IMG/VR virus record: IMGVR_UViG_3300020195_000072
Span: 1-40,064 of that record
Source: a virus
Length of the DNA stretch: 40,064 nucleotides
Strand: one strand, 5' to 3'
Part shown: positions 14,991-36,085 of the stretch, piece by piece
How the letters are laid out: every line of letters starts with the position of its first letter
Position numbering within the stretch: position 1 is the first letter of the stretch
Position numbers and translations under genes: made by a program
Notes under the pieces: generated by a model
Seen by the model: only the letters and a program-made list of their open reading frames with translations
Told to the model about the DNA's origin: nothing
The model's database searches: none

Positions 14991-15102
14991 TTGGTCCTCC
15001 AAAATATTCATCCCACCAACATTTATCGAAGCGGTTCACCCACATCTTCCCCATGACTTCATCCAGTACCACGAACATTTCATGTCCATGCTTGCATTTC
15101 AT
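14932..15102 (-). CDS. 56-residue Cys/His/Trp-rich protein
   Basis: MKCKHGHEMFVVLDEVMGKMW... carries a CKHGH motif and several Trp residues. AAGGA lies about 7 nt before the ATG. It overlaps the start of the NlpC gene by 59 nt in another frame, more than usual here, so it is either a nested lysis regulator or only partly real. Confidence 0.45.
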   Translation of the reverse strand: MKCKHGHEMFVVLDEVMGKMWVNRFDKCWWDEYFGGPNATRTTDDGSKGSDQKWSC

Positions 15103-15363: not shown

Positions 15364-17073
15364 TTATTGCCCCACTTTAATATTTTTAAAAATGATCGGA
15401 CCGCTAAATCGTGGACTACCATACAACACCGCTGCCGCAATACACGCGCTGGTCGTTCCCGAATAAATATTACCACCGTAAGAGGTTTCGGACGAAACTT
15501 TCACTCCGAAATAGTACGCCGTGTTACATGTGAGACTTCCCTGCGTATCGGGCGAAGTCGCTGTTCCCGTGGAAATGTTACTCGAAAGGTCCACGTTTTG
15601 GCTCCATGTCCTGGTGATCGTAAACGCTGGACCCCAGGTTGCAACCAGGCTCGTTTGCGTGGGACTTCCAACTGTTGTAGGGATGACCGTGTTGACGGTG
15701 AACGTAGTAATGCTCGAAGTGTACGAACCCTCAGTTGAAATTCCGACTTTGAAATAATAAGTTGTGTGCTGTGCCAAGTTCGCGTAACTCGATGTCACAG
15801 TAAGCATGGTTCCACTGGCGATGGTCGGAATGAAATTGCTCGAAGTGGAAAAGGCGGTCATGTAGGTGTTGGCCGAAACGCTCGACCACGTGATCGAGAA
15901 CGAACTGACTCCCACCTGGGTTACGAATTTTGCATTAAGGTTGGTCTGTCCGGCTGCTACCTGCTCACCGACAAAAAACTGTTTTCCAGAGGAGCAATCC
16001 GTAAGATCAAGAGTAGTCCCGTCGCACACGAAAACCCAATTGGTTGTCCCGTTAACAAGCCGACCTTGATGAAAATAAAAATCAATCAACGTATCTCCCC
16101 AGGTTTTAGGAATACCCATCTCCGTCACGGAGGCCGTCGAAATATTCGACGAGTTGGCTATATAAACGCGCTTCCACGAAACGTCGATATAAATATCGTC
16201 CATTGAGACGGTGCCAGTCGATGGAGGAAGGGGGGTGTTCGACGGGTCTTGTTGAATAAAAAACTCTCCGTTGGAGTAATTCCCTGATGCGCCGGTTGCG
16301 TCCGTCTTTTTATTTGTGACCGTCGCCGTGGTTGAGTCGTACCAAACGGCAAATTTGCCATCGGCAGTGTTGTGCGCGCTGTTAATTTGGAATAGCCACT
16401 GATCGACGTGCCAGTTCGTGTCCTGGGCGGGCGGGAACGGTCCGTAGTGTTTTGAGTTTAAACAAAAACTTCGGTCCCCGTCCGCGTATCCGTCGGTGCA
16501 TCCGCCAGGGTAGCTCGTAAACGTGGCCGCACTCTGCTCTACCGTCACCGTCAAGTCCCGAGCTGTCGATTCGTTGCTCCAGATTATGTCCGGCTGCGCC
16601 CCTGCTGCTCCCGACCACCACCGTAAAAATTTATCGTTGGAAACGTCCGTGATGAAACTGGTTTGCCTGCCAGTTCGTGCATAAACTTTTGCCCCGTACC
16701 CACTCGTTGGCAACTTTATCGCAATATTAAAAGTGGTTGTGTTCCAGCCCGAAGATGATAGGAGTTTCCCCGATCCACTTAATGGAGAAACGGAGCTCGT
16801 CTCCCCATTCTGTGATTCTACGTTCCATCCTCCGGCCAGGGTTCCTAAGGTCGTGGGAACAGTTGAGCCGTTGAAAGAGGCCCACACGTGCGGCTTTGCG
16901 GGACTTTTGGTTCCGTACCCCGTACCACTCACAGTAATCACGTTAGCCGAGGCATCATCCGCGTTCCCGGAAAATGTTCCGGAGAGAGTGCTAATGGTCG
17001 GCGCACTCCACGCTTTACTACACGTTAGGCCAGCAAGCAGAAATAAGACGAACCTTATTTTTGACTGCATCAT
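15364..17073 (-). CDS. Secreted-type fibre/adhesin with signal peptide and Fn3-like repeats
   Basis: 569 residues. A signal peptide (IRFVLFLLAGLTCSKAWSA) is followed by an IPT/TIG-like start (ISTLSGTFSG...VITVSGTGYG), then a lectin- or lyase-like beta domain (about 150-310) with WHVDQWLFQINS, GKFAVWYDS and MDDIYIDVSWKRVYI, and two or three Fn3-like modules with SITWSSVSANTY and TYYFKVGISTEGSY. It reads like a surface polysaccharide-binding protein. It lies in the fibre block and overlaps its neighbour (ATGA). Phage fibres normally have no signal peptide. Confidence 0.7.
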   Translation of the reverse strand: MMQSKIRFVLFLLAGLTCSKAWSAPTISTLSGTFSGNADDASANVITVSGTGYGTKSPAKPHVWASFNGSTVPTTLGTLAGGWNVESQNGETSSVSPLSGSGKLLSSSGWNTTTFNIAIKLPTSGYGAKVYARTGRQTSFITDVSNDKFLRWWSGAAGAQPDIIWSNESTARDLTVTVEQSAATFTSYPGGCTDGYADGDRSFCLNSKHYGPFPPAQDTNWHVDQWLFQINSAHNTADGKFAVWYDSTTATVTNKKTDATGASGNYSNGEFFIQQDPSNTPLPPSTGTVSMDDIYIDVSWKRVYIANSSNISTASVTEMGIPKTWGDTLIDFYFHQGRLVNGTTNWVFVCDGTTLDLTDCSSGKQFFVGEQVAAGQTNLNAKFVTQVGVSSFSITWSSVSANTYMTAFSTSSNFIPTIASGTMLTVTSSYANLAQHTTYYFKVGISTEGSYTSSITTFTVNTVIPTTVGSPTQTSLVATWGPAFTITRTWSQNVDLSSNISTGTATSPDTQGSLTCNTAYYFGVKVSSETSYGGNIYSGTTSACIAAAVLYGSPRFSGPIIFKNIKVGQ

Positions 17074-17717
17074 GGAAGCGACCAGGCTTGCAACATCGTG
17101 ATCCGTGCGCTCGTGCCTTCCATTGCGAATCCAACGTTACCGTTTCCAGTTACAGAATTACCGTCGGTGAGCGTGGTTTTAACCACTCCATCAATCGAGC
17201 AGGAAACATTCGCGCCGTCGGCTGTAAATCTAACGGTGTAGTAAGTAGCTGCGGCAAATCCAGATAGAGTTCCACTAGAAGTTGTCGTTTGAACTCCTGC
17301 TATTTTTTTAAATGTGACATATTTGCCAGTACCGTCGAGATAGAAAGCATAGAGATCATCAGTTCCATCATTGGTCCACCTGGTGTAAGCGCCAAACCCG
17401 TCCGTAGCGGCTGTCCCGCCAGTTTTCCCGACAACCTCGTTAAAGTATCGACCCGTCGTGGGGTTATCATTTGCAATCATCTCTCTGAATCCCGCTGACC
17501 CATTAATAATTTCATCCGCTGCTGCGTTTACGGTTAGGTCGGCAGAGCCAGAACCAGCCCACGTTCCGCCCGTGTCGGGAGTATGTGAGGCAATGTTGGT
17601 GTCAGTTCCTTCAGTGAACGAATCAATGCGGATGGCGTAGGATTGCGAGAGAATCAACGGATACTCGAAATCGTCACCCGTCGTAAATGCAAAGGCAAGC
17701 GCGATTAAACGATTCAT
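17070..17717 (-). CDS. LamG/concanavalin-like beta-sandwich protein
   Basis: 215 residues that read as one jelly-roll: TYYTVRFTADGANVSCSIDG, VGFAMEGTSARITMLQAW, with TGRYFNEVVG before. This fold binds carbohydrate or packs against fibres. The N-terminus (MNRLIALAFAFTTG) is a short, weak signal-like segment. It is coupled to both neighbouring fibre genes by ATGA overlaps. Confidence 0.7.
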   Translation of the reverse strand: MNRLIALAFAFTTGDDFEYPLILSQSYAIRIDSFTEGTDTNIASHTPDTGGTWAGSGSADLTVNAAADEIINGSAGFREMIANDNPTTGRYFNEVVGKTGGTAATDGFGAYTRWTNDGTDDLYAFYLDGTGKYVTFKKIAGVQTTTSSGTLSGFAAATYYTVRFTADGANVSCSIDGVVKTTLTDGNSVTGNGNVGFAMEGTSARITMLQAWSLP

Positions 17718-19306
17718 TGTTGAACCTTAATCTCTAACCCAACACTAACAGGAGCAGAATTGCTGTTTGCCGTGTCGGTTTGTGTATTTCCAGCACGCCC
17801 AATTCTAATCCACAAAACACATTCACCCAAACCCAGCAAATTCGTAACACCAGGCAATGGTAACCTAGTCTTAGTTGTCACGGCTCCACCATGTACACCC
17901 ACGTTCCCGCTTACAACATAAACCACGGTACTGGTATAAACAAGGTCTTTAGCGGTAGTAGCGTCCGACGCCGTGGCAAAGGAAACTAAATAAACCCGGC
18001 TTCCCGTAACGGTTCCAGACGAATAATCCGTAAAGTTTGAAATGGTGGGCGTACTTCCAGAAAAATAATTGCGCTCTATTTTTTTTATGTAAAATGCCGC
18101 GCTAAATGGAGCAGATCCGGTAGCTACCCCGTCCATCCAGGCCAAACCATTGGTTGGAGTGGAAGTATTAACGACTGTCATCGTGGAAGTTCCACAAAAA
18201 GTTGGTAACGATACGCTCGTGTACCAGGTCGTAGCAAACGCCATATCTCCGAGGATGTTTAAAGGGCCGCCAACGCCCTGTAGGAAACTAGATCCCGCGC
18301 CATCGCCCACTGTGATCGCGGTAAATGTCGAGCCGCCGCCGACGAATCCAGCGGTGGAGGTGATTGTGCCGACCGAGGTCATGCTCCCCACGCGAACCGC
18401 GTTAGTGGGGAGAGTGGCGATGAACAGGTCGAATCCATTGTTGCCGCCGCCGCCTCCACCACTACCACCCACGGTAGAGGTTGGATAAGCCACGCCAGCC
18501 ATGGAGATCAAAGGCACGTTAACGACCACGGAATCGCCGCGAACGGTGAAAATATCGAAAGTCCCAGTTGAGACTTTAAATAACGCCGTTGCGCCCGGAG
18601 TCGTTCCTGGTCCCGAAGAAACATGAAGAACTGCTTTCGGGGAAATATTATTAATACCAACACCGCCGCTTGCGGTTGCGACATAGGTCAACCAATCGGT
18701 AGGCTTCCCGGCGTTACCTTTTACACTAAAAAACATAGTTTCTGTATTCCCGCTATATCCAATATACGCATTCGTGCTGATTGATCCATTTTGAAATCCG
18801 ATGCCTGTTAAAGTGCCAGCGACACTGTTTCCAATAAGCAAAGGTATCGGATACGCATTTGCGGATAATATTCTAAGGCTCGGCGATTGAAGACTTGTTT
18901 GTATGGTCGTGGGGTTGGTGAGAGTGAGGCCGCCGCTAAAGGTCTGCGTTGCGAGGGTCATTGCGACAGAGGAGAGATCGACGGTCGCGGAACTTGCCCC
19001 GATGTTAACCAGTGGTCCATTGATAGGCGAAACAATCGTCATCGACGATATCGTGGTGTAGGGAGAGCCAGTCCCGGCCGAGAATTTAAGTAAAGCCGTA
19101 GCCGACCCTCCACCGCTACCTGTCGCTTTTGTGGTCTGGGTCGTGCCATCTACAAACGCAATGGCGGTAAAAACAGGCGTAGATTGTGAAATAACCTGAT
19201 CCACTCCATCCGCACAACCGCCACCATTGATACACACCTGATCCACCGAGTACGCATTCACCGCCACACCTAAGAATAATGACAGGACTGCTAGAACTTT
19301 CTTCAC
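17714..19306 (-). CDS. Tail fibre-like protein with signal peptide
   Basis: About 530 residues. The GTG at 19306 is preceded by GAGGTGAT at good spacing, and an ATG at 19330 in frame is the alternative. VKKVLAVLSLFLGVAVNAYS is a clean signal peptide. The body is Ser/Thr/Gly-rich repetitive beta sequence (TQTFSGGLTLTN, SISTNAYIGYS, KAVLHVSSGPG), a GGSGGGGGG hinge near the middle, then a distal part with FSAAFYIKKIERNYF. This is fibre-type sequence. Confidence 0.75.
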   Translation of the reverse strand: MKKVLAVLSLFLGVAVNAYSVDQVCINGGGCADGVDQVISQSTPVFTAIAFVDGTTQTTKATGSGGGSATALLKFSAGTGSPYTTISSMTIVSPINGPLVNIGASSATVDLSSVAMTLATQTFSGGLTLTNPTTIQTSLQSPSLRILSANAYPIPLLIGNSVAGTLTGIGFQNGSISTNAYIGYSGNTETMFFSVKGNAGKPTDWLTYVATASGGVGINNISPKAVLHVSSGPGTTPGATALFKVSTGTFDIFTVRGDSVVVNVPLISMAGVAYPTSTVGGSGGGGGGNNGFDLFIATLPTNAVRVGSMTSVGTITSTAGFVGGGSTFTAITVGDGAGSSFLQGVGGPLNILGDMAFATTWYTSVSLPTFCGTSTMTVVNTSTPTNGLAWMDGVATGSAPFSAAFYIKKIERNYFSGSTPTISNFTDYSSGTVTGSRVYLVSFATASDATTAKDLVYTSTVVYVVSGNVGVHGGAVTTKTRLPLPGVTNLLGLGECVLWIRIGRAGNTQTDTANSNSAPVSVGLEIKVQQ

Positions 19307-19333
19307 CTTTATCACCTCGCTTTTTTTCATAGA

Positions 19334-20722
19334 TTAACCGCCGTGGTACGTCACCGCAATCTTCCTAAAAGTTTCTCCTGGATTCCAGATAATGGCTACC
19401 CTTGCTTTGGCTACTGAATAATTGTGCTGTAAATCGTCGTCCTGCTTTTCAACGTGACCCGCAACGTCAGAGGACATGAGATAATCGCCAATGGCGATAT
19501 TTGCGCCCTTGTTAGCGACAAAAGCGAACCCTGTACCAATCGAAGCGATCATATCTCTGGATTCAGAATCTGTTCCAAGCCAAAAACCCCAGGCTGCAGG
19601 AGATTTCCGCGTTGTGCAAAGTCGAGATTTTGTCAGTTGAGGTTTAGGGGAAGCTTCGGATTTCATCATTTCAACTATATTTTCACCCTGCTTCGTTCCC
19701 TTACCTTTATATCCATTCTTTTTTTCTTCATCTGTCACTTCCCTCTGGACGCTCTTATCAGAGAATGGCGTTAACTTTTCGCCAGTTCCTTCCACGAGGT
19801 ATAGGATATTCATCTGCGATTTATCATCAATCTGAGTGAAGTGCGATCCCGTGAACGTGTTGTAAGCAATCACGCCAGCCGCCCCGGTCCCTGCAATCGA
19901 GCCTTCCGACCCTGTTTGAGAACGGAAATCAATGAACGTATGAGTGGAGACTAAAAACGCTTGCGCCACGTCAATATCGAGCCGGAGGACCGGTAGAGTA
20001 TCGTTCCCTTTTTTAACGTGGACACCCGCCGCCGGGACCACGGTTTTATCAAACAGTCCAACTCCCATATATCGGCTGACATTGCGGTTAGAAAACGTAA
20101 CGATAGGGCCGGAAGAAATGCCAGCCTGTACTCCGTCGATGTACATATCTCCATTCGTATCTGAAATCCCGAAATCAAAACCAAACCCAAAAAATCCAGC
20201 GTTAAACTGTCGAATAGCCAGGGCTGTTTCTGTGGCGAGCGAATCCCTAGCGACAATCTTAAGCTTTACGGATTTTCCTCCTTCGGCTCCCAGGGACGCG
20301 GTTTCTTGAAAAACCATAGAGCTAGAAATATAGATTTGTGCCGTGACTGAGCTTTGACCTATGATTGTGTTTTTCCCGCTAAAAGTCTGAGTCGTGTTTA
20401 ATATGGCGGCAGGAGAAGATGGCGTGCCGATAATGGTTGCCGTGACGCTGGATTGAGTGATACGCACTAAGTCTCCCGCAACCAATATGCTGGAACTGAA
20501 AGTCACCAGTCGGCTAAACGTGTTTAAACCGCTGAATGTCTGAGTCGAGGTTATGGCAGAAACATTGGGTCCCACGAGCGTCACGCTTGAAGGATCAAGC
20601 CTCTCATTAGGAAGCGTCCCACGGTTCAGCGTACTTGCGTCACGCAAAAGAGTGTAAGCACCAGACCAGGAGAAGGAAGGCAAAGCTAAAATTAGGATGA
20701 GTCCGGCAAGATATTTTTTCAT
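19334..20722 (-). CDS. Tail fibre-like protein with signal peptide and G2-peptidase-like C-terminus
   Basis: 462 residues. I start at MKKYLAGL because GGAG lies 8 nt before that ATG. The signal peptide is KYLAGLILILALPSFSWSGA. The shaft has repeated STQTFSG/NTF units; the end (IASIGTGFAFVANKGANIAIGDYLMSS, then VAKARVAI) resembles the self-cleaving peptidase G2 domain that ends many fibres (GD-x-L-x-S motif). Such domains cut off a chaperone after trimerisation, but cleavage here is inferred. The basic Lys/Glu segment before it may be a linker. Confidence 0.7.
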   Translation of the reverse strand: MKKYLAGLILILALPSFSWSGAYTLLRDASTLNRGTLPNERLDPSSVTLVGPNVSAITSTQTFSGLNTFSRLVTFSSSILVAGDLVRITQSSVTATIIGTPSSPAAILNTTQTFSGKNTIIGQSSVTAQIYISSSMVFQETASLGAEGGKSVKLKIVARDSLATETALAIRQFNAGFFGFGFDFGISDTNGDMYIDGVQAGISSGPIVTFSNRNVSRYMGVGLFDKTVVPAAGVHVKKGNDTLPVLRLDIDVAQAFLVSTHTFIDFRSQTGSEGSIAGTGAAGVIAYNTFTGSHFTQIDDKSQMNILYLVEGTGEKLTPFSDKSVQREVTDEEKKNGYKGKGTKQGENIVEMMKSEASPKPQLTKSRLCTTRKSPAAWGFWLGTDSESRDMIASIGTGFAFVANKGANIAIGDYLMSSDVAGHVEKQDDDLQHNYSVAKARVAIIWNPGETFRKIAVTYHGG

Positions 20723-20727
20723 GTCAT

Positions 20728-23700
20728 TCACTCCTCGTAGGGTTTAACGTCTAAGGCAAAAGCGTAGTTGAACAGCTTAAAAGTGTTGGCTCTGGTGTAG
20801 TCGTAATATTTGAGTTGTAAGTACGTTCCATCCCTCGAATTGAGGTTGATCTTTTCCTGTTCGATGGAGGGGAGGTAGGCTTCCCCATCCCCCACCACGC
20901 TAAACTGGGTTCCAGTAGTCGTATATTCGTCGATGATATCGAAGTTGGATTTGAGGAGCTTTTGGACATAGTAGGTTCCCGTTGTGGCAACGTCTTTCGT
21001 GAAACCGATGAAAATATAAGGCCCGAGCAACGCGAAATCTCCGCTTAAGGTGTATGTGCTTTTAGTCAAGACATTGCGGGGGCGTAAGATTTTACGCTGA
21101 ATCAAAGACATATCCCCTTTATTCCGCTTCTCTAAAATCACATCTTGAAAGAGGGGGTTATCTGTCACCTTGTTATAGGCCGCATAGAGATAACGCGCAT
21201 CGTTCCTTAAAACCATGTCTGAAAAAGTGTTAGAGTCGATATCTTTTTCCGAGACAAAACCGTATGTAGAGATATTGAGTTTCACGATCCTAAATCCGTC
21301 GTCGTCCGCGATCCAGATATTGGTGAGGTCGGCGGTAATGCCGCAAGGGGTAATCAGGTTCGTTGTGCCATTACCCAATTCACCGTAAGAGTTGACGTAT
21401 TTGAGGCCGTCGCGTTTAAGCTGAACAATCCGATGATTAAACGGGTCTGTAATAAAAATGGAGTTAAGAGGCGTTCCTACAAGCGTCATTTCACTTGCCG
21501 TTTCAAAGTTGGTCGTACCCGTTCCCAAGCTTCCGAAACTTGAAACAATAACGCTCATGCTGGAACGGTCGAGCTTGTTGAGTGAGTATCGCACCTTGTC
21601 GAAAGCGTAGATATATTTCGCGTCTGCCTCTGCCGTCATGTAATCCCTGATATTGCCTGTCGGATAGCGGGTCGAATTGATAACGGAGAAATCGAAGCTG
21701 TTCAGGCGCGTGATTCCGTTCGTCCCTTTGTACCCCAGAACAAAGATTTCTTTCGGTATCTTCGCGTTCACGTTCAGCTTATTTGCGAAATCTCCGAAAT
21801 TGGTAAACACATCAATGGAAAATGAGGAGTCTGCCGTCTTATCTCTAGTCAAAATTACTTGCCTGTAATCCTTGTTATTCACCTGTCCCAAATTGAACTG
21901 TTTCGTTAAAAAGTAAGATTCAATGGGGTTTTCCGCACTTTGAACAAGTCTTACATCGTCAATATTGATCTCGGTCGTGTTGGTTGCAGAGGAAACAAAA
22001 CGCAGGCCGTAATAGGTAATATTGGCCGCAAAAGGGGATTCTTGAAGCGTCGCGTCGGTCCAGCTTGAAGGGATCGGGAAAGAGGAGATGGGAACCTCCA
22101 CAAAAGCCCAAGATCCACTTGAAGCCACGAAATCAGCGGAACTGATGGTGACGCTCGTGGTGAACTGGTCAAAGGCTTGCACCGTTACGCCTACTTGAAG
22201 GTCGATCCGCAAATATTTGACGTTTGCATGGCTAGAAATGTGCATTTTGAAGGCTATTTTGTCGTCTGTTGAGGATTTAGACTTATCAGCCCATTCTCCA
22301 AGCGAGATCATCCCTTGTCTCGTGGTAGAAGTTGAGAAGTTGTTAAGTGCGCTCATGGTGAGTTTGATTGAAGCTGTTCCCTCCACCACGCGAGAGTTAT
22401 CAATCGTCCCTCCGGTCCAGTTCGCCATACTTTCCATGTTGTCGATAACCAACTCTTTCCTTGCATCGTCTATGCGGGTTTCGAGGTCGGCCTGATAGAC
22501 GTAGCCGTCAATCGAATCTCCGTAAAGCAGTACCCCATCATCCCCTTTCGCGTCACGCGCCACAAAGGATTCAGCCAGCCAGCCGCTAAAAGGCCACCAT
22601 TGGCCTGTTCTAATGTCGTAAACCGAAACCGAGTTAGAACGTCCTTGCGGGAACTTGAAAGGGTCTTCATAGCCAAAGACAAGCCACTGCTTTTTCGGGT
22701 AATAGGTCAAATGGGCGTTCTGGTAGGTGTTATTCTTCACGATACTCTCAATCACGGTTCGGATATTGGTTGAGAAGGGTTTCAAGGTTTCAACGAGGTC
22801 CAGGCTGTTCCTTTGGTTCCGATCCCAGAAGATCAACCCCCCCTTACTAAGGAAGGCGTCGTATTGACCGATATTTTGAAGGCTCCGAGGCGCGATACAT
22901 CCGAAACCGTTAACAATGGTCTGAACCGCGATATTCCCGCCCTCAAACGTAGCCTGCAAAGCGTTTGAATAGGAAATCTCCGAAACGCCTGAATCCTTGT
23001 AAGCGTAAATCTTGCCGTTGGAGTAGGTCATTCCGGTCAATGATTCCCCATCTTCGCTTCGGATATTGATCTGATGGTTCAGCGTGTAAGAAGAAATTTG
23101 GTTAAGAAAGGAGTAGAAAATCCGGCTGCCGTAGTAGGTCGTGTTTCCATTTAAATCGCTTACATCTAAGACGTTGCCAAAAATCACCTGGTTGTTAGCC
23201 GCAATGACATACTTTGCGCGTAGCCTGAAAGAGTCTGAACCCGCGTAAACCGTCACCAGTTCCGTGAATGAATCTCTGACGATATCGTAAGAATAGGGCG
23301 GGTCTGTCAGTTGATCGCCCGTCATAATGAGCTTTCCACGCGCCACCGCAAAGCTGAAATGCTGGTCCCATCCCACCAGGTTCTTCTTAAGGAGCGTCCA
23401 TTGAGGCAATACACCGCCCGTACTTTTATAAATGCGGTCCCAGGTGGTCGCAATGAGTGCTTTATAAGCTACCGTGCCCTGGTCGATGGATAGCCAAAAT
23501 TGGGAATTGATCGGATGAGACGAGATCGCTTGAGCGATAAACCGTTCGCCTCCATACCGCTTAGAAGCCGCTCCTTGTAAGTCTCCGATCATGTTTTGAG
23601 CGTCACAGGCCGCGTTGTCGGCAATATCGGTACAGGGTTTCGAGTAATCTACCCCACCGCCGAAATTGATGGGGGTTGTAACGTCACCTGCGGCGAAGGC

Positions 23701-23784
23701 CCAATTAGACCCCCCCAGGACAAGGGCAAAAAGGTATAATTTAAGGATGCTTTTCGCCTTCGTAAAGTTAGCCGCCCTAACCAT
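20728..23784 (-). CDS. Tail nozzle/stabilisation propeller protein with signal peptide
   Basis: 1018 residues, start at MVRAANFTK (AAGGA 7 nt before); the frame is open to a GTG at 23880. A signal peptide (SILKLYLFALVLGGSNWAFAA) is followed by the opening typical of P22 gp10-like nozzle propellers (INFGGGVDYSKPCTDIADNAACDAQNM). Propeller repeats run to about residue 440; a carbohydrate-binding-like beta-sandwich at about 450-615 ends with NIDDVRLV; NHL-like propeller repeats follow to the end (NSIFITDPFNHRIVQL; TNIWIADDDGFRIVKL). It would close the tail tube and bind the surface. The signal peptide is very unusual for this class. Confidence 0.75.
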   Translation of the reverse strand: MVRAANFTKAKSILKLYLFALVLGGSNWAFAAGDVTTPINFGGGVDYSKPCTDIADNAACDAQNMIGDLQGAASKRYGGERFIAQAISSHPINSQFWLSIDQGTVAYKALIATTWDRIYKSTGGVLPQWTLLKKNLVGWDQHFSFAVARGKLIMTGDQLTDPPYSYDIVRDSFTELVTVYAGSDSFRLRAKYVIAANNQVIFGNVLDVSDLNGNTTYYGSRIFYSFLNQISSYTLNHQINIRSEDGESLTGMTYSNGKIYAYKDSGVSEISYSNALQATFEGGNIAVQTIVNGFGCIAPRSLQNIGQYDAFLSKGGLIFWDRNQRNSLDLVETLKPFSTNIRTVIESIVKNNTYQNAHLTYYPKKQWLVFGYEDPFKFPQGRSNSVSVYDIRTGQWWPFSGWLAESFVARDAKGDDGVLLYGDSIDGYVYQADLETRIDDARKELVIDNMESMANWTGGTIDNSRVVEGTASIKLTMSALNNFSTSTTRQGMISLGEWADKSKSSTDDKIAFKMHISSHANVKYLRIDLQVGVTVQAFDQFTTSVTISSADFVASSGSWAFVEVPISSFPIPSSWTDATLQESPFAANITYYGLRFVSSATNTTEINIDDVRLVQSAENPIESYFLTKQFNLGQVNNKDYRQVILTRDKTADSSFSIDVFTNFGDFANKLNVNAKIPKEIFVLGYKGTNGITRLNSFDFSVINSTRYPTGNIRDYMTAEADAKYIYAFDKVRYSLNKLDRSSMSVIVSSFGSLGTGTTNFETASEMTLVGTPLNSIFITDPFNHRIVQLKRDGLKYVNSYGELGNGTTNLITPCGITADLTNIWIADDDGFRIVKLNISTYGFVSEKDIDSNTFSDMVLRNDARYLYAAYNKVTDNPLFQDVILEKRNKGDMSLIQRKILRPRNVLTKSTYTLSGDFALLGPYIFIGFTKDVATTGTYYVQKLLKSNFDIIDEYTTTGTQFSVVGDGEAYLPSIEQEKINLNSRDGTYLQLKYYDYTRANTFKLFNYAFALDVKPYEE

Positions 23785-23900
23785 GGGAGCGTCCTTATTC
23801 CGGGGAAAACAGACTGAAATCCCCTTTTGGCAATTCTTGATCCATTTAACGGTCCACATGGTTGTAGGTTCAGTCCTCACGTTTATTTTTTTACAGTTCT

Positions 23901-25658
23901 TTATTTAGGTATGTAATCGACGGGCGAATTTTTGTCCTTTTGCTTCCGATCCCAATTCCCACCTTCCAACCCATCCACAATCTGCTGATATTCCGGATCG
24001 CTGTCCATCAAAAGCCAATGTTGCAAGGCCACCTGTTGCGCTCCGAGTTTCGCGGCTTGTGCAAGTTGAGGCGCGAACCGTCCTAACGCTTTAGGGTTAA
24101 CTTTTAAGATGGTCGGAATAGCGGTGGCTATTTTGTTGCCAACCGATCCCATGACTTGTTTGCTTCCGATATACTTATCAAGAAGGTCGGCTGCTACTTC
24201 CCCGCCTTTGCGGTCGATGTAGGAACCAGCGGTAGCACCAAGTCCGGCTCCCATCATTGCCCCAGGCACAGGAAAGCCAACCGCCCCACCTAAAGCCCCG
24301 CCGATACCAGTTCCCAAAACCGCGCCCGTGTTCACGTTCCGAGATCCGTTTGTCTTTCCACCCGTAAACTCTTGCGCGTACTTCGCATTTTTAACCTTCG
24401 GGCCGATATCAACGCCTGTAATCTTCTTCACGTTTTCCATCACTCGGTCGGTTTCTAACTTGCCTTCCCTTAAAGCTGTGTTGGTTCTGGAATAAGTCGT
24501 ATCAGTAGGCACATATTCCCCACCCTTGATCCGTTTGATCGAAAACTTGCGGGTAAATTCGTTCCTTGATTCAATCGCTTCCTCAACTGGTTTCATGGCT
24601 TTACCGTAAGCCTTGTTGACCTTCTTTAATGCACCGTCAAAACCTGTGCGAAGGTTTACCAAAGCCTTGTCTGTGGCCGTCATCAATTCGGGCGATTCAA
24701 TCACCTTTTTCCAGTTGATTTCTTCGTCCAAATCGTCAATCAAATCGCTCAATTGCTTTTGGCTGACAGTATTTTTGATCTTCTTTAAGTTCTCGGAAAT
24801 CCGACCAATCGCACCCGCCGCGACTTTGCTTTCGTCCGTGTAAACACCGCCCAGCTTCCGACGGGCACTTTTTACGATGTCGAAAATCTCATCTTTTGTT
24901 AAAGCCCCGCCCTTATCGGTTGGTCCTGCTTTCAAATAACGGGAAGTTGAAAGGAGTTCCTTCGCTTTCGCCGATCCTTTCCCGATAATCTTTTTAAACT
25001 TATTCGCCACTTCCGGCATCTCTTCCGCGAGTCCTTCCATGGAAGCTTTCTTGATTGCCGCAGGATTTTTAAGATAGGCCGTGATCGCTTCTTCCGAAGG
25101 TCCGAGAACGGAACCGAAAACCTTCTTTCCTAAATATTTCGCGCCTTCCACGCCTTTCTTCAAAACAGGAGGGGTTATTTTTCCAAGAATTGATCCTGAT
25201 AACGCGCCAATTCCAGTATTAACCGCCGTGCTCGTAAATTCACCTTTTGTTAAATCTGCTTTAGAGTTCCCCAATCCCTGAATCCCGCCCAATACCGCCA
25301 GTTTCGGCAATGTCACGCCTTGCATACCAGGAGCGAAGGAGGTAGCCATTGCGCCACCAATTTCGCCAGCCATATAACTTTTAGGGTTTGCTTGTTCGGC
25401 CCGATCATATTTCTCTCTAAAAACGTCCCGCGCTCTTGCGTAGCTGTCAACGGTCGGGAGTTTTCCAGCCATCAAGTCCCGACCCGTTCCCGCAATCAGT
25501 CCCGCGCCTTCATCGGCCCACCCCATCAACGCGCCTTGAGTGGCACCAGCTGCCGCAGATTTCACTATCGGATAATTAGGAGCCGAGGCCGGAGATGAGG
25601 CATCCTCGGTTTCAACCATGTAAGAACCTTGATCGGTCGTGACTTTGTACTTTGCCAT
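23901..25658 (-). CDS. Large ejection/internal virion protein
   Basis: 585 residues. The N-terminal third (AAAGATQGALMGWADEGAGLIAG, LPTVDSYARARDVFREKY, NPKSYMAGEIGGAMA) is the Gly/Ala-rich membrane-active start common in podovirus ejection proteins. The middle is helical and Lys-rich, followed by another Gly/Ala hydrophobic hairpin (VLGTGIGGALGGAVGFPVPG). Expected to sit in the capsid and enter the host envelope with the DNA. It couples to the upstream gene by TAATG. Confidence 0.75.
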   Translation of the reverse strand: MAKYKVTTDQGSYMVETEDASSPASAPNYPIVKSAAAGATQGALMGWADEGAGLIAGTGRDLMAGKLPTVDSYARARDVFREKYDRAEQANPKSYMAGEIGGAMATSFAPGMQGVTLPKLAVLGGIQGLGNSKADLTKGEFTSTAVNTGIGALSGSILGKITPPVLKKGVEGAKYLGKKVFGSVLGPSEEAITAYLKNPAAIKKASMEGLAEEMPEVANKFKKIIGKGSAKAKELLSTSRYLKAGPTDKGGALTKDEIFDIVKSARRKLGGVYTDESKVAAGAIGRISENLKKIKNTVSQKQLSDLIDDLDEEINWKKVIESPELMTATDKALVNLRTGFDGALKKVNKAYGKAMKPVEEAIESRNEFTRKFSIKRIKGGEYVPTDTTYSRTNTALREGKLETDRVMENVKKITGVDIGPKVKNAKYAQEFTGGKTNGSRNVNTGAVLGTGIGGALGGAVGFPVPGAMMGAGLGATAGSYIDRKGGEVAADLLDKYIGSKQVMGSVGNKIATAIPTILKVNPKALGRFAPQLAQAAKLGAQQVALQHWLLMDSDPEYQQIVDGLEGGNWDRKQKDKNSPVDYIPK

Positions 25659-26602
25659 TAGTCGATTCTCTCCACCTTCAAAACTTTCTGCCCGTTAAAC
25701 AAACCGCCGACAGCAGGGGCGCTTGCGCCGCCAGTAGTCGGAGTTTTTGAGTAGCCTTTTGAACTCAACTGAGTCGCCACGTTCCGTTTGATCTGTTTTA
25801 AGGTCGTAGAAAGTTCGGACTGTCTAGATTTGTCTCGCGTAAACATGGATTTAAGAGAGCCAGGATCAGCGATCATCTTTTGAATTAGTCCCAGATCGGG
25901 ACCATTCAAAACGCCCAGGTTTTTGAGTTCTTTGGCTTCAAGCTGTAAATCTGTTGCTAAAGAGTTCATTGCAGCCCCACTTTCTCCGAAATATTCAAAG
26001 GAACCATGCTTATCAACTAAAGCTTTCATGTCATTGACGCCTTGTTCAAAGTTGTCCAATCGGCCCATAGCTTCGCGAATCTTATCCGCTTCCCTCGGAA
26101 GTGGCGTAATATCATCGCTCAGATTAAACCCAGGAACTTCGAGCTTTTTCCGTTCTTCCATCTTCTTTTGTTCCGGCGTTTGCTTAATGACGGGAGTTCG
26201 TGAAATTTTACCGTTCACGTTCCCCGTAATTTCTCCGTCCGGACCCATGATGTAGGTCGGGACAACGGGTTTCGCGTTAGCCACGCGAATATCGGAAGCC
26301 TCTTTAAGCGGTAGCATGGTCTGCTCTTTTCTCAAGTCGATATCAGCCTGTCCCTGTCTCGACAATAAATCAGATTGCCTTTGAGCATCCAGCTTTTGCG
26401 GATAGAGAGCCATTTCGTCCATCAAATCCTGTTGCTTCCCCTTCCTCTGAGCATCCAGCTTTTGCAGATAGAGAGCCATTTCGTCCATCAAATCCTGTTG
26501 CTTCCCCTTCCTCTGGTACTGATAATTCATGTACTGGCCTAAGAGATCATTTATCCCTTGCAAGCCCCCAGCTGCCCCAGCTAAAATATTGTCGTTTGCC
26601 AT
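25658..26602 (-). CDS. Coiled-coil ejection-type protein with tandem 22-residue repeat
   Basis: 314 residues. The N-terminal part is Gln/Lys-rich helix containing RKGKQQDLMDEMALYLQKLDAQ repeated once with a Leu-Pro change (about residues 33-76). The rest is helical with a polar end. It lies between other internal virion proteins, so a role in the ejected channel is likely. No enzymatic motif. Confidence 0.65.
   Translation of the reverse strand: MANDNILAGAAGGLQGINDLLGQYMNYQYQRKGKQQDLMDEMALYLQKLDAQRKGKQQDLMDEMALYPQKLDAQRQSDLLSRQGQADIDLRKEQTMLPLKEASDIRVANAKPVVPTYIMGPDGEITGNVNGKISRTPVIKQTPEQKKMEERKKLEVPGFNLSDDITPLPREADKIREAMGRLDNFEQGVNDMKALVDKHGSFEYFGESGAAMNSLATDLQLEAKELKNLGVLNGPDLGLIQKMIADPGSLKSMFTRDKSRQSELSTTLKQIKRNVATQLSSKGYSKTPTTGGASAPAVGGLFNGQKVLKVERID
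26382..26513. repeat. 66-bp direct tandem repeat (two copies)
   Basis: Units 26382-26447 and 26448-26513 differ at one base and encode 22 residues each. The near-identity shows a recent duplication inside the ejection-type gene. Confidence 0.9.
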
Positions 26603-26604
26603 CG

Positions 26605-27318
26605 TTATTCTCCCATCCCTGCAAATTTCGATTTCGGTTTGTAATAAGCATCGTAAACAGATTCCGCGTTCCCGCCTTGACCCGCAACGGGAGCTTGAAC
26701 GGTCACAGGAGCTTTCGGTTGGTTCGATTTATGGAGCCCATACGCCAGCGGAGCCTGAACACCTACCCCGATCAATGACGCAATGACGGCTTGCTCGTAA
26801 GGGTCGGAGGTGTTTTGCGAGAATCTATCCGATTGAGCCGCATACGATCGGCTGATATTGTTTCGGTCAATCAAGTTCATTCGTGCGATATCGTTGGATA
26901 TAGCCTGATGGTCTTGCGATTGCTGATTTAAAGCAATCTGACGGGCGTTGGCACTTGCATTGTTCAGGTCTTGTCCAGAGTTCACGAAACTGTCAAAGAG
27001 GGTGTTGTAGCTTAGATTCTGAATCCTCTGCTTTTGAGCCATACGCGCACGGTCTTGAGCTTCCTGGTTTGTACGATCTACGGCCTTTAACCCTTGGCTT
27101 TGCGCTTGAGTGCCAGCTTGAACGATGGAAGGCGATAGCCCATACTGTGCGCCGATGTTTCCAAGGATATCCTGAGCGCCGGACTGGAAGGCGGGTCGGC
27201 CCATCTGGATCATGTCTTCGGATTTCGCTAGTCCAGGCCCAATGGCTTGACCTTGAACCGCTAGTAAGTCGGTTACTTTCTTTTGGCTTGCTTTTAATGC
27301 GTCTGTGTATTCGCTCAT
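26605..27318 (-). CDS. Helical Ala/Gln-rich ejection-type protein
   Basis: 237 residues, Gln-, Ala- and Ser-rich helices (SASANARQIALNQQ-like; DLLAVQGQAIGPGLAKSED) with one hydrophobic stretch late (AVIASLIGVGVQAPLAYGL). The same composition as the 366-residue neighbour. Probably an internal virion protein of the DNA-ejection complex, by position and composition only. Confidence 0.65.
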   Translation of the reverse strand: MSEYTDALKASQKKVTDLLAVQGQAIGPGLAKSEDMIQMGRPAFQSGAQDILGNIGAQYGLSPSIVQAGTQAQSQGLKAVDRTNQEAQDRARMAQKQRIQNLSYNTLFDSFVNSGQDLNNASANARQIALNQQSQDHQAISNDIARMNLIDRNNISRSYAAQSDRFSQNTSDPYEQAVIASLIGVGVQAPLAYGLHKSNQPKAPVTVQAPVAGQGGNAESVYDAYYKPKSKFAGMGE

Positions 27319-28418
27319 TAGTTGACCTCCGAAGGAATGGCGGAGCTTAATGTTTGGTTAGCGACCGCAGCACCAACAGGCCCACCATAGACCGCACCTA
27401 ACGCTGTCCCTCCGGCGATTACTGTGGTTTTAGCTAGGTTGTAAGCAAACTGGTCTTTTACCGCCTTACTTTTCTGATCTGCTTGATTTTGAGATTGCAA
27501 AACTTTGTTTTGGCCCTGTTGGGCTAAGATGTCGTTATTGAGTCGGTTATCAATATTGTTCTGGCTAGTTTGGAATCTTTGCTGTTGACGTTGACCGATA
27601 GCAGCTTGCTCTCCCGCCAACTGACCACTAATGTCTGCCCCTTGCTGAATCAAGTTCTGGTAGGTGGTCTTGTACGACATATCCGCGAAAAATTGGATAT
27701 CGGCTTGCTGTTGCGCGAGCTTTTCGGCTTCAATTTGTCCTTGAGCCGCCGCATACTGAGATCCGATTAACCAGCCTAGCTCGGATTCGGTATCAAGTAA
27801 ACCGCGACCATTCAACGCCGCCGCCGCTTGGGGCGCATAGACTTGCTGAATATAATCTTGAGCGCGATTTTTTTGGCTTTCAGAAAAACGGTTTCTTTCG
27901 GTTTCCAGAGCTTGAGGCGTATTTCCAAGAAATTCATTAAGCTGCGCCTCCTGTTCCGTCTTAAACAATCTTTGATCGTAGAGGTTTTGGGTCGAGGATA
28001 GGTCTTGCTCATAGTCGGGAAGTTCAGAATTGAACCCGCCACCGCTGATCTTGTCGTTTAATTTTTGAAGGAGAGGGTCTATTAAGCTGTCGGCGCGACG
28101 AATGTCTTTAATGGTCTTCGGAATGTCATCGCCGCCACCATAACCGCCTAAATCCGCCAACCCCGTCTTTAGCGTTCCCGTTTGAGCGTAGAAATTCCCC
28201 ATCTGCGCCGAGTACTGATCCGCAATTTTAGGAGGAATCCCGTTTTTAACCAATATCCCGCTGATTTCGTTCTTGAGAGCTAAGGGATCAAATTGCGCTT
28301 TCTGTTTAGAAAGACCGCCTAATGCGTCAAGTCTGGTCTTTAAATCAGAGTCCGAGAACTTTGAGATATCTTTCCCGCGTTGGGAGTCGATCAGCTTCTT
28401 ATATTCAGCGGTTGTCAT
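27318..28418 (-). CDS. Gln-rich ejection-type protein
   Basis: 366 residues: helical and Gln-rich from about residue 150 (RNRFSESQKNRAQDYIQQVY; QQADIQFFADMSYKTTYQN), with a Gly/Ala hydrophobic end (TTVIAGGTALGAVYGGPVG) that could insert in a membrane. First of four such genes between the adaptor and nozzle genes, where T7/P22-type phages place internal core proteins. Confidence 0.7.
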   Translation of the reverse strand: MTTAEYKKLIDSQRGKDISKFSDSDLKTRLDALGGLSKQKAQFDPLALKNEISGILVKNGIPPKIADQYSAQMGNFYAQTGTLKTGLADLGGYGGGDDIPKTIKDIRRADSLIDPLLQKLNDKISGGGFNSELPDYEQDLSSTQNLYDQRLFKTEQEAQLNEFLGNTPQALETERNRFSESQKNRAQDYIQQVYAPQAAAALNGRGLLDTESELGWLIGSQYAAAQGQIEAEKLAQQQADIQFFADMSYKTTYQNLIQQGADISGQLAGEQAAIGQRQQQRFQTSQNNIDNRLNNDILAQQGQNKVLQSQNQADQKSKAVKDQFAYNLAKTTVIAGGTALGAVYGGPVGAAVANQTLSSAIPSEVN

Positions 28419-29428
28419 TGTCCTCTCCCGTTTCCAGCCAACACCCTAGGCGGGAACGTGCGGTAGGGATACCACACGAGATCCGCGTTCTGCTTCAAAG
28501 TGTTGAGCCTTCCTTGAGCCATTAAAATGTTCGCTTGCCAGCCAGGAGCATTGACGCTTCTTTCAAATTCAGCCTTAGCCCAATCCATGAAGGTACGGTC
28601 AAATTTGTTCGATAACTCGTTAGAATCGTTGTCATGGACCATATCGTAAAGGTGGCGGATATAGAAGAAAGGTTGAACCGCTTTTTGACTGGGAGCCGTG
28701 AAGATTTCAGCTTGAATCGGAGATTCGGACTTAATGAAATAAGCTCCACCAGGGAATGTTTCCATAGCTCGGTTGTTCATGGTGATTTGGGTGTCAGAGT
28801 CCACCGTTCTAACGGTGTATTTGTAAGACTGTAAATTGATGAGATCGCCAGGATGGACGTTATCTAGAAAAGAGGTTCCAACACCCGTTAAAATATTTGA
28901 ATCAGCCGTCACCGAAACTGTTCCAGCCGAATAATCGGTATCGTTTAGGTCGTAGCCTTCAATCGTAAATGGAACTTCCATAGCGTCGGACTTTTCGTCA
29001 GGTAGGACTAGCCGGATATCCGAGTTCACGCGGTAAAACCGTTTACGGATCAGGTAGGTGAGTGCGGAAGCCGTCGCTTCCACAATCGGGCTTTGAAGGA
29101 TCAATTGGGTAGCTGAAACGACGTTGATGATCCGATAGTACGCGCTCGTTTGCGAGTGTTGGAAGAATCGGCCAACCATAGCAGAAGTCCAATCGGTTCC
29201 TGAACCGTTCACCGTCCTAGAATCCAGAGTGATTGAAACGGTTCCGCTCGTATGGTTTGGAATCAAAACCAACTCGCCGTATGATTTCAATTCTTTCCAA
29301 TGGTAGGATTTTGAAACGATGATCTTTGCCGCATTGACGGCAAATTTTAGTTTGCCTTCAACGTCAGTATCATCCCGTTTCTTGTTGACGAGAAACGCCA
29401 GTTCCGATATCGCATTTCCAAAAAGCAT
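28415..29428 (-). CDS. Head-tail adaptor/connector candidate
   Basis: 337 residues. An N-terminal helical part (LKFAVNAAKIIVSKSYHWKEL) and C-terminal helical part (KFDRTFMDWAKAEFERSVN) resemble P22 gp4-type adaptors. Between them are two similar beta modules: GTVSITLDSRTVNGSGTDWTSAM...YRIINV and GTVSVTADSNILTGVGTSF...YTVRTV, a duplicated domain. Location between head genes and ejection genes fits a ring under the portal. Confidence 0.65.
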   Translation of the reverse strand: MLFGNAISELAFLVNKKRDDTDVEGKLKFAVNAAKIIVSKSYHWKELKSYGELVLIPNHTSGTVSITLDSRTVNGSGTDWTSAMVGRFFQHSQTSAYYRIINVVSATQLILQSPIVEATASALTYLIRKRFYRVNSDIRLVLPDEKSDAMEVPFTIEGYDLNDTDYSAGTVSVTADSNILTGVGTSFLDNVHPGDLINLQSYKYTVRTVDSDTQITMNNRAMETFPGGAYFIKSESPIQAEIFTAPSQKAVQPFFYIRHLYDMVHDNDSNELSNKFDRTFMDWAKAEFERSVNAPGWQANILMAQGRLNTLKQNADLVWYPYRTFPPRVLAGNGRGQ

Positions 29429-29432
29429 CGGC

Positions 29433-29810
29433 TTAGTACCGACTTTTTTGCCTGATCTTAAACCTCACAATCGCGGGAGTGGTCCCGAGGTTGGATATAT
29501 ACATTCCGGTCGAAAGGTCGAGACCTACAGGAATAACCCTTGCGCTCGATCCTTGCCAGCCTTCGTATTTCTTGATCCCAGGCGTTAAGGTCGAAAGAGC
29601 CGTATCATAGATAGAAATAACGGAATCCGCTGATCCTGCCGACATCACATCAATCAGGTCCACGCTGATGTTTCCAGTTGTGATCTTTACACCATTTTGA
29701 TAAGTAGCTACAACGGTTGAATAAGAGTTTTCCCAAATATCAGCCGCCCCACGTGAAACAATTCCCATCACCATCAACACCGCAACAAATAACAATTTCC
29801 TCAAGGTCAT
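29433..29810 (-). CDS. Small beta protein with signal peptide (head-tail region)
   Basis: About 125 residues. A signal peptide (LRKLLFVAVLMVMGIVSRGAA) is followed by beta-rich sequence (GNISVDLIDVMSAGSADSVI, TPAIVRFKIR). GGGGAGG sits close to the ATG, and a TTG 8 nt after it is an alternative start. The composition resembles the 30177-30674 protein. In a head operon it may be a decoration or connector component, yet it is tagged for export. Confidence 0.6.
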   Translation of the reverse strand: MTLRKLLFVAVLMVMGIVSRGAADIWENSYSTVVATYQNGVKITTGNISVDLIDVMSAGSADSVISIYDTALSTLTPGIKKYEGWQGSSARVIPVGLDLSTGMYISNLGTTPAIVRFKIRQKSRY

Positions 29811-29818
29811 CACCTCCC

Positions 29819-30115
29819 CTAAATTAGCCGTCTGGTCGTCGTCTTAAATGCGGATCGCTCTTCTAAGAATTTGCGCGTGAGTTTCATGCGTTCTATGGGG
29901 TCAGGATTTCTAAAGATGTGCTTGAAAGCTGGGTTCCAGTAAATTGTCGCCGGAATATCAGCCATTGCACCCACGCCTTTATCTTTCGAGAGAGCCTTGC
30001 CATTTGAAAGGCGTTTATCTTTGCAATCCCTGACCACATCACGCACTTCTTTGGTGTCGCAAATCCGAAGGTAACGGTCATCTACCAAGTCTTTTTTAGC
30101 GATTAGAGTTATCAT
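29819..30115 (-). CDS. 98-residue basic protein of the head operon
   Basis: A compact charged protein (LIAKKDLVDDRYLRICDTKEV; RMKLTRKFLEERSAF) without signal peptide or membrane segment. It lies between two signal-peptide genes in the head operon. No family recognised; possibly a head completion protein. Confidence 0.6.
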   Translation of the reverse strand: MITLIAKKDLVDDRYLRICDTKEVRDVVRDCKDKRLSNGKALSKDKGVGAMADIPATIYWNPAFKHIFRNPDPIERMKLTRKFLEERSAFKTTTRRLI

Positions 30116-30133
30116 GGTTTTTTAGAGGTTCCC

Positions 30134-30162
30134 GGCTGGGAGAGCTATTAACTCCCCCAGCC
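30134..30162. repeat. Hairpin between head genes
   Basis: GGCTGGGAGAG (30134-30144) and CTCCCCCAGCC (30152-30162) pair over 11 positions with one mismatch and a 7-nt loop. It lies between the 165-residue signal-peptide gene and the basic protein gene. No T run follows on the minus strand, so it may set mRNA stability after the capsid cistron rather than stop transcription fully. Confidence 0.6.
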
Positions 30163-30176
30163 CAAGAACAAACTAT

Positions 30177-30674
30177 TTACCGCTTGAAGAAGCCGCCAGA
30201 TTTCTTTTTGTAGCCCACCGTTACCACCACGCCAGGGTTAGAACCGTTCGAGTTGTTGTTCACAATGAACAAGGCTAACCCCTTCTCAACACCGCGACCT
30301 GAACCACTAGCATCAGTGAAGTTCAAGGCCGTCACAGGCATTGAGATTGTGTTGGTAGTGTAAGCGATCAGCGGAGGAATTAAGTATTGGCTTACAGGAA
30401 ACCGAGCCAAACTAAACGTCTCGCCAATCAGCAAGTTACCCGCGCCGCTCGCAATGGACGAGAGCGGAACAGTGTCCACCAACACAGCCCATACCGCGCC
30501 GCCTGCGTTCGCAGAGCCAGACCCAATTTGAATTGATGTAATCTCAATGTTGGTTCCGGTCGTGATAAACACACCCGTGGAAGTCGTGGTGAAATAACCG
30601 TCAGCTTTCACCATTCCAACCAAACCCACCAAGCCCAAGAAGGCCGAAACAACAAGAATTTTCATGGTTTTCAT
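30177..30674 (-). CDS. 165-residue beta protein with signal peptide beside the capsid
   Basis: A signal peptide (MKILVVSAFLGLVGLVGMVKA) is followed by beta-sandwich-like sequence (NIEITSIQIGSGSANAGGAVW; GLALFIVNNNSNGSNPGVVV) and a basic end. AAGGAGG stands 9 nt before the ATG. Immediately downstream of the capsid gene is the usual place of decoration proteins. Export would be at odds with cytoplasmic capsid assembly. Confidence 0.65.
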   Translation of the reverse strand: MKTMKILVVSAFLGLVGLVGMVKADGYFTTTSTGVFITTGTNIEITSIQIGSGSANAGGAVWAVLVDTVPLSSIASGAGNLLIGETFSLARFPVSQYLIPPLIAYTTNTISMPVTALNFTDASGSGRGVEKGLALFIVNNNSNGSNPGVVVTVGYKKKSGGFFKR

Positions 30675-30688
30675 GTTATTTTTCCTCC

Positions 30689-31645
30689 TTACAGGGTGTA
30701 ACCGAGTCCGGTCATCTTGCCGGAAGATTCAGGAGCCATAGCCACCAAAGTCAATTCCGTGGCATAGTACCCGCCAAAGAAATCACCCTGAACGGTTTCA
30801 GGTCCAGAAACCCATTTCCATTTCGGTTCACGCAGCCAAGCGGTTTTAAAACGCCCAGCTTCGATCATCAAAAGGACTGAGTATTTGCCATCGCTATCAA
30901 CGAGGAACCGATCGTAATGGATATCCTGAACACCCACCACGGTCTCATACTGGTTAATGACGTTCGTCAACTTTTTGCCGGAATCGGAGATAGGGCGGTT
31001 CACTTGATCCACCCAACCCGCAACAGCGCGTTTCGCCTGAATACCGCAGAACACGTCCAGAGGATAGCCGCCCTGCTTCAAACACTTAGAAGCCAGGTCG
31101 TCATAATAATCTTGACGCAAGGTCACTTCGGGATATTCGCCGGAACCGCAAGCCACCACGTTTTGAGTGAGGAAGGTTTGTGCGCCAGCCGATTGACCCG
31201 CAGTTCCCGTGTTAGGAAGCGGAGCCACAGCGGCGTTAGAAGAAACAAGCGTTGCTTCGATATCATTGGTGAGTTCGTCGAGCTTGTTCTTTTTCTGATT
31301 TTCCAGTTCGCCCATCAACCCGCGACCAATCCCAACCTTATCCACGGCTTCATGAGACAAGTCAACGGAAACTTGTTTCTTGAGCAGTTGGCATTGGTTA
31401 AAAGCTTGAGTGCGAGCCGTCCAGTCAGCAGCCGCGAAAGTCACGGTAAAACCATGAGCTTCCTTGTTGACCGCAGAGGCCGCCGCTAAAGTATCCTTCG
31501 TCCATTCCACTTTCGTGTTCGTCGCGTCCATTCTGCCAACCGCAGCCAAGAAAGGCCGTTCGGTAGGTGAAATGTTGGTAATGGTGTTAATTACCTGTTC
31601 GCGGATTCTGCCCTGTTGCTCTATATTTACGTGAACGTCAGCCAT
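30689..31645 (-). CDS. Major capsid protein, SU10/DUF5309-like
   Basis: 318 residues. The start GRIREQVINTITNISPTERPF and the block RMDATNTKVEWTKDTLAAASA match the pattern of the SU10-type (DUF5309) major head proteins. Later regions (YDDLASKCLKQGGYPLDVFC; FLVDSDGKYSVLLM) also fit a HK97-fold shell protein. Follows the scaffold gene directly. No signal peptide. Confidence 0.8.
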   Translation of the reverse strand: MADVHVNIEQQGRIREQVINTITNISPTERPFLAAVGRMDATNTKVEWTKDTLAAASAVNKEAHGFTVTFAAADWTARTQAFNQCQLLKKQVSVDLSHEAVDKVGIGRGLMGELENQKKNKLDELTNDIEATLVSSNAAVAPLPNTGTAGQSAGAQTFLTQNVVACGSGEYPEVTLRQDYYDDLASKCLKQGGYPLDVFCGIQAKRAVAGWVDQVNRPISDSGKKLTNVINQYETVVGVQDIHYDRFLVDSDGKYSVLLMIEAGRFKTAWLREPKWKWVSGPETVQGDFFGGYYATELTLVAMAPESSGKMTGLGYTL

Positions 31646-35921: not shown

Positions 35922-36085
35922 TTCTTTTTCCCCACAATTAAGATGTCCTCGGACTTGTCGTCCTTGTCATCGAATAGCTGAATCGAAAACTTTTGCTCTA
36001 GCTCATGGATGAGATGAGCGAGAGTTAATTTATCGTTGAAACAGATTTTAAGTTTCGTACTTTCACACTTCACCGTTTGCATCAT
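35918..36085 (-). CDS. 55-residue small protein
   Basis: MMQTVKCESTKLKICFNDKL... with an acidic end (FDDKDDKSED). TAATG overlaps the terminase stop. A second ATG three bases on is better spaced from GGGAGG, so the true start may be 36082. No family recognised. Confidence 0.6.
   Translation of the reverse strand: MMQTVKCESTKLKICFNDKLTLAHLIHELEQKFSIQLFDDKDDKSEDILIVGKKK

Follow-up and report, generated by a model that had tools for sequence, protein, structure and literature searches.

The IMG/VR virus record IMGVR_UViG_3300020195_000072 is linear and 40,064 bp long, and the whole of it was analysed here (henceforth, the window). Most genes of the window lie on the minus strand, including all those of the late block and the lysis region described below. 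The late block follows the order terminase, portal, scaffold, capsid, three genes encoding proteins of 165, 98 and 126 aa and a protein at the adaptor position. Past the latter come four ejection-like proteins, then the nozzle, then the fibre-like proteins (465, 538, 215 and 569 aa) and the lysis region. The gene of the terminase large subunit, TerL (36085-37530; phrog_2, E 1e-38), is followed by that of the portal or head-tail connector (32928-35000; phrog_332, E 8e-6), by a scaffold-like gene assigned on the basis of position and composition (31689-32396) and by a major capsid gene of the SU10 type (30689-31645; PF17236, E 9e-45). The 165-aa gene (30177-30674) adjoins the capsid gene on its downstream side and is separated by the 98-aa gene (29819-30115) from the 126-aa gene (29433-29813), in which an ATG one codon further in would give 125 aa. 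The 126-aa and 165-aa proteins share a weak similarity (BLASTP E 4e-4), which is chiefly N-terminal. The adaptor-position gene (28415-29428), whose product has partial matches to tail-protein families, lies between the 126-aa gene and those of four putative ejection or internal virion proteins of 585, 314, 237 and 366 aa (23901-28418).

The remainder of the block comprises the 1018-aa nozzle (20728-23784), which belongs to the P22 gp10-like 'phage stabilization' family, and the fibre region, with a 465-aa protein containing TQTFSG repeats (19334-20731), proteins of 538 aa (17714-19330) and 215 aa (17070-17717), and a 569-aa protein (15364-17073) with closely spaced cysteines at 171/183 and 329/339. 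With regard to lysis, an NlpC/P60 endolysin (14529-15011; PF00877, E 1e-9) and a holin-like membrane protein (13520-13972) were found, the latter with a PF04531 match (E 0.002) under the curated cut-off.

The SU10/P22-type capsid, the homology of the nozzle to gp10-like proteins and the presence of both terminase and portal are features of podophages with a P22-like nozzle, and no tube or sheath genes were identified among the part of the ORFs that was scanned. Podovirus head and tail proteins are made and assembled in the cytoplasm without signal peptides; this usual feature, which is not strictly defining, is not shared by six late proteins of the window, which bear export signals.

A terminase scan returned 335 relatives, of which 80 were kept. 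The window TerL is 49-66% identical to the terminases of these 80 viral contigs, whose structural genes are unrelated to those of the window, and the same range of identity to many epsilon15-like phages and contigs with unrelated structural genes points to strong mosaicism. Other traits of the record were recognised by eye, namely an IS1595/ISXO2-type transposase-like ORF within the phage genome (7443-8366) and, on the opposite strand, an ORF (12798-13346) that stops early and whose N-terminal parts are Arc-like and tyrosine-recombinase-like, a possible integrase remnant. The left end of the record (1-70) consists of CCCGTA/CCCGCT low-complexity repeats.

Export signals in the late block

Candidate leaders were evaluated with a home-made scorer, which combines the n-, h- and c-regions with the residues at -3 and -1 and has its own threshold of 3.6; eight known E. 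coli and M13 signal peptides scored 3.5-5.2 on this scale, and LacY 3.2. Six late proteins, namely the nozzle and those of 165, 126, 465, 538 and 569 aa, reached 3.67-5.04 and present tripartite Sec-type leaders, with the layout of signal peptidase I substrates as judged by this scorer: a positive n-region, an h-region of 7-15 residues and small residues at -3 and -1. The h-regions mostly measure 8-14 residues and are followed by A-x-A-type sites, that of the 165-aa protein being longer, at about 17 residues.

In the 165-aa protein, the gene of which is preceded by the Shine-Dalgarno sequence AAGGAGG, the leader covers approximately residues 1-24 (30603-30674; score 4.62), with predicted cleavage between MKTMKILVVSAFLGLVGLVGMVKA and DGY. 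That of the 126-aa protein also spans approximately residues 1-24 (29742-29813; score 4.43), while the nozzle leader, counted from the ATG at 23784, occupies approximately residues 1-31 (23692-23784; score 4.07) and ends in LKLYLFALVLGGSNWAFA ahead of AGD. For the 465-aa protein (leader 20657-20731; score 4.43) the probable start is the ATG at 20722, with the sequence MKKYLAGLILILALPSFSWS. The leader of the 538-aa protein, approximately residues 1-26 (19253-19330) and ending in KVKKVLAVLSLFLGVAVNA, has the maximum score of the window (5.04), and that of the 569-aa protein, approximately residues 1-21 (17011-17073), the lowest among the six (3.67). A Shine-Dalgarno sequence was found at most starts, being weak or absent at those of the 538- and 569-aa genes. 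Within the fibre block, the 215-aa protein has a marginal leader, MNRLIALAFAFTTG, which scored 3.18 and was left out of the signal peptide count.

A seventh leader, of the lipoprotein type (MKRIIYVGVFVFCLGSC; score 3.95) and with an LGSC lipobox, belongs to a 386-aa protein encoded outside the late block on the minus strand (609-1769), with a TTG start after GGGGAGGA and a visible Shine-Dalgarno sequence. This ORF (609-1877) has no Pfam match and resembles a secreted cellular protein more than a virion part.

The scorer found no parse for the capsid, scaffold, portal, adaptor, TerL, TerS and three of the four ejection proteins, and the remaining ejection protein, that of 585 aa, scored 1.7; the 98-aa protein and the endolysin also lack a signal. 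When the genes of the late block were assigned by hand to outer and inner classes, the difference gave a Fisher p of 6e-4. Furthermore, shuffled N-termini of the six proteins attained the real score in only 0-1% of trials. An earlier note on this DNA had described signal peptides on six late proteins and their lack on the capsid, portal, scaffold, adaptor and ejection proteins, and both descriptions are borne out, with the six genes lying on the minus strand at the coordinates it gave.

As a baseline, 80 capsid-relative viral contigs were scored from every possible start, and none of the 365 ORFs downstream of the capsid gene reached 3.6; since no such ORF scores as high, the leaders of the six window proteins are not put down to chance. 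When all ORFs of these contigs are counted, a single one out of 812 was at or above the threshold. Ten annotated phage records contained 10 such ORFs out of 401, the majority of them genes for membrane or lysis proteins or morons, and the 80 contigs with related terminases contained 31 out of 1057, of which part are spurious ORFs and part point to the third lineage presented below.

Related contigs and the origin of the leaders

Scans of genome collections found no relatives of the window, and single-protein scans with the nozzle, capsid and portal found no close ones. Sequence searches of the PDB likewise found no relative of the nozzle, and the AlphaFold2 models were not used, their mean pLDDT being 42 for the 165-aa protein and 33 for the nozzle. 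The route to relatives was the TQTFSG motif, which is common to the 465- and 538-aa fibres and occurs three times in the window as against 0.12 expected; a scan of viral contigs for this motif led to some that held rows of signal-bearing genes. The clade of contig L291 consists of 11 distinct uncultured contigs obtained from nozzle- and adaptor-based scans, mostly the latter. As the adaptor bait carries no signal, selection bias is limited, yet the adaptor seed rows stem from signal-bearing contigs.

In one contig, L239/L291, the capsid gene is followed by those of two signal-bearing small proteins with a membrane protein between them, then by the adaptor, by a nozzle and a fibre that both bear signals, and by the ejection proteins. 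Across the clade a signal is present in all 33 outer-class genes (first small protein 8/8, second small protein 9/9, nozzle 9/9, fibre 7/7), as opposed to none of the 53 inner-class genes (portal 4, scaffold 6, two head-region genes 7 each, capsid 8, adaptor 11, ejection 10). The nine nozzles include a less certain case, that of L294, where the leader is in frame and the usual start codon is absent before it. Retention of the signal in homologous contigs, which the earlier note had proposed as a check, is thus seen for the same four gene classes in 11 contigs.

The 165- and 126-aa proteins of the window are the positional equivalents of the first and second small proteins of the clade, respectively. 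Profile comparison detected no homology of the window small proteins and the 465-aa fibre to their clade counterparts, and the capsid types differ, being PF17236 in the window and PF10124/PF25209 in the clade. The cleavage sites of the clade have small residues at -3 and -1, and often Q or G at +1. The predicted mature N-termini of clade nozzles and first small proteins mostly begin with Q, in line with the Bacteroidetes Q rule, whereas those of the window do not, which may reflect hosts of different phyla. Between its two small genes the clade carries a polytopic membrane gene of the Wzy_C type (PF04932, O-antigen ligase-like; 6802-8091 in L291, 1543-2856 in L292, with equivalents in L294, L309-L311 and L313-L315), the product of which may alter the surface of the host.

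The window nozzle is homologous to the signal-bearing nozzles of L244, L292 and L294 (tblastn 2e-5; hhalign 4e-5) and to MW202497 (tblastn E 1e-3), and also to the signal-free nozzle of L006. In the aligned nozzles the leader directly precedes the conserved N-terminus, and the signal-bearing nozzle of L292 matches the virion-protein family phrog_3287 from residue 30 on. Leaders diverge faster than the mature part (identity 0.26-0.50 versus 0.62-0.68), with their properties kept. In the signal-free homologues of L003, L006 and L303 the domain simply begins without a leader and, because of this, the nozzle leader is, as judged from the alignments, a lineage-specific module added to a standard virion protein and not a misread N-terminus. 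Homologues without the N-terminal segment, which the earlier note had named as evidence against its reading, do therefore exist, but only outside the signal-bearing lineages, within which the signal is kept. The nozzle tree requires two changes for the signal trait, and a single origin is neither shown nor excluded. The leader-bearing proteins have no conserved internal starts that would give a cytosolic form, and the idea of dual cytosolic and exported forms was rejected for this reason.

Podophages that combine a P22 gp10-like nozzle with an SU10-type capsid are already known, such as the Manatee Spring phages ctxSa4 and ctf1B273 and the record G002/L303. They share with the window homologous capsids and nozzles and the order capsid, small proteins, adaptor, nozzle, fibres and ejection proteins but lack the signal peptides that the window has on its nozzle and fibre proteins. 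L089 (which is G002), the record whose capsid best matches that of the window, is also signal-free in nozzle and fibre.

A third lineage is represented by L088, a terminase relative with signal-bearing genes of 112, 544 and 708 aa between terminase and portal, the 544-aa protein of which has matches to the arabinofuranosidase B catalytic family as well as to a family of virion structural proteins. The family of the 112-aa protein has members with a leader (L088, L072, L070 and L061) and members without one (L060, L067, L068 and phage P8625, where the protein, gp23, bears the annotation of a tail fibre protein). In each of the four leader-bearing forms, two cysteines occupy columns that are empty of cysteine in the leaderless ones; the leaderless forms have in common one cysteine elsewhere, which the leader-bearing forms have lost. 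This shift would be expected of proteins that fold in an oxidising compartment, and suggests that the leader-bearing forms do so. A cysteine pair is also common to the first three second small proteins of the L291 clade that were aligned, and missing in some members found later. Overall, the cysteine content of signal-bearing mature proteins is 0.61% versus 0.23% in the others (p = 5e-4), a comparison that ignores relatedness and is taken as supporting only.

In the myophage-like contigs L213 and L285, signal-bearing proteins at the fibre position adjoin baseplate genes, and the tail block of L250 encodes a signal-bearing 688-aa protein with a K1-lyase C-terminal domain at its end. Signal-bearing tail proteins may thus extend beyond podophages.

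Possible routes of the outer proteins into the virion

Export of the outer proteins is well supported by sequence, and we infer that they are later incorporated into the virion. Virion production therewith appears, somewhat more probably than otherwise, to be split over two compartments in this phage and in several other uncultured lineages, with the outer parts exported and joined at or after the breach of the inner membrane. The small proteins, nozzle and fibres would cross the membrane through SecYEG, lose their leaders to signal peptidase I and fold in the periplasm, partly with disulphides, and packaged heads with the adaptor would form in the cytoplasm. At lysis the holin would open the inner membrane and allow the two pools to meet, unless they meet at the membrane itself, and the nozzle and fibres would dock last, on the adaptor. 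In evolutionary terms, the signal would have been added before ordinary virion protein domains in particular lineages. As the endolysin is signal-free, one may expect a holin step to mix the compartments. The chief difficulty lies in the role of the nozzle in P22, where it helps to keep packaged heads closed; with the nozzle in the periplasm, the adaptor or some other plug would have to retain the DNA until lysis. As counter-evidence, the nozzle homologues of other phages are signal-free, and export is therefore not needed for nozzle function; moreover, it is from position only that the two small proteins are assigned a role in the virion. The export of outer virion parts, one of two options raised in the earlier note, is strengthened by the retention of signals in 11 contigs and by the third lineage with its gained cysteine pair, while the other option, that these proteins coat the infected cell, fits the nozzle poorly.

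The exported products could nonetheless act on the surface of the infected cell, by receptor masking, as a coat or in adhesion, and not in the virion, with the late operon only timing their expression. Phage-coded exported surface proteins do exist, and the Wzy_C gene between both small genes of the clade suggests surface remodelling. The signal-bearing genes of Porphyromonas phages have been interpreted likewise (PMC10367356). This explanation seems unlikely, given that the nozzle is homologous to a regular part of phage tails, with no second, signal-free copy seen in the window or the clade contigs, and that proteins at the fibre position in related cases carry tail modules. We attach a rather low probability to the leaders being uncleaved N-terminal anchors or membrane-targeting segments, by which the outer parts would be held at the inner membrane for heads to dock there. 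Such a tether would solve the problem of how two pools meet, and some h-regions are long, as in the 165-aa protein, but most are short and followed by A-x-A-type sites, and the gain of a cysteine pair is suggestive of an oxidising compartment. The objection that these are ordinary membrane anchors, anticipated in the earlier note, is thereby weakened and not removed.

Cleaved N-terminal propeptides occur on phage structural proteins, and the hydrophobic N-termini might be virion propeptides or segments for assembly or entry, perhaps cut by a phage protease, and not Sec signals. In the Porphyromonas phage paper, signal-like capsid N-termini are accounted for in this manner (PMC10367356). However, the classical charge-hydrophobic-AxA layout on unrelated proteins of unrelated lineages, the small residues at -3 and -1 with frequent Q or G at +1, and the lack of any capsid here with a signal-peptide-like N-terminus make it quite improbable. 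Chance or wrong starts from gene calling, to which the lack of a good Shine-Dalgarno sequence at the 538- and 569-aa genes and of a clear start ahead of the L294 leader would lend themselves, are already disfavoured and hardly credible in view of the baseline (0/365), the shuffles (at most 1%) and the relatives (33/33 versus 0/53).

Phage proteins that use the host export route are known from other systems. Filamentous phages of the M13 type make their coat proteins pVIII and pIII with signal peptides. Their virion proteins pass along the Sec/YidC route of the host before being built into the particle (PMC8310372). The window, by contrast, encodes the terminase, portal, scaffold and endolysin of a tailed dsDNA phage, extrusion machinery was not seen in it, and Sec-dependent assembly of the filamentous type was discarded, the capsid being signal-free and of the PF17236 type. 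SAR endolysins, signal-peptide endolysins and spanins likewise rely on host Sec export, but the exported proteins of the window are at structural positions and its endolysin is signal-free. A reading as exported lysis proteins was also rejected, as the NlpC/P60 lysin is encoded separately and is signal-free, and no lysis domain was found in the signal-bearing late proteins. The Nixviridae prophages of Porphyromonas gingivalis carry several genes with Sec signals, some of which follow the Bacteroidetes Q rule, and Q past the cleavage site is also found in most nozzles and first small proteins of the L291 clade. In the accessible text of that study, however, the signal genes are of unknown function and read as host-modifying, and they show no systematic link to nozzle, fibre or capsid-proximal genes (PMC10367356). 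The open PMC subset, preprints not included, yielded no report of signal peptides on the nozzle, fibres and capsid-adjacent small proteins of a tailed phage as a set.

To our knowledge, tailed-phage assembly is regarded as wholly cytoplasmic. From its sequence, the window may be described as a podophage with an exported outer module, and it would represent a new assembly mode only if split assembly is proved. We tentatively propose, with slightly less than even confidence, such a mode for at least three uncultured lineages, in which heads would be cytoplasmic and outer parts Sec-exported and oxidatively folded, in a manner tuned to the host signal peptidase, and particles would become infectious only once the two compartments come together, at lysis or across the membrane. 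The finding would bear on the expression and annotation of metagenomic tail fibres, the genes of which risk being set aside as secreted proteins of the host. If true, it would mean that a tailed virion can be completed beyond the inner membrane, would account for disulphide-bearing tail proteins and would predict particles that mature only at lysis.
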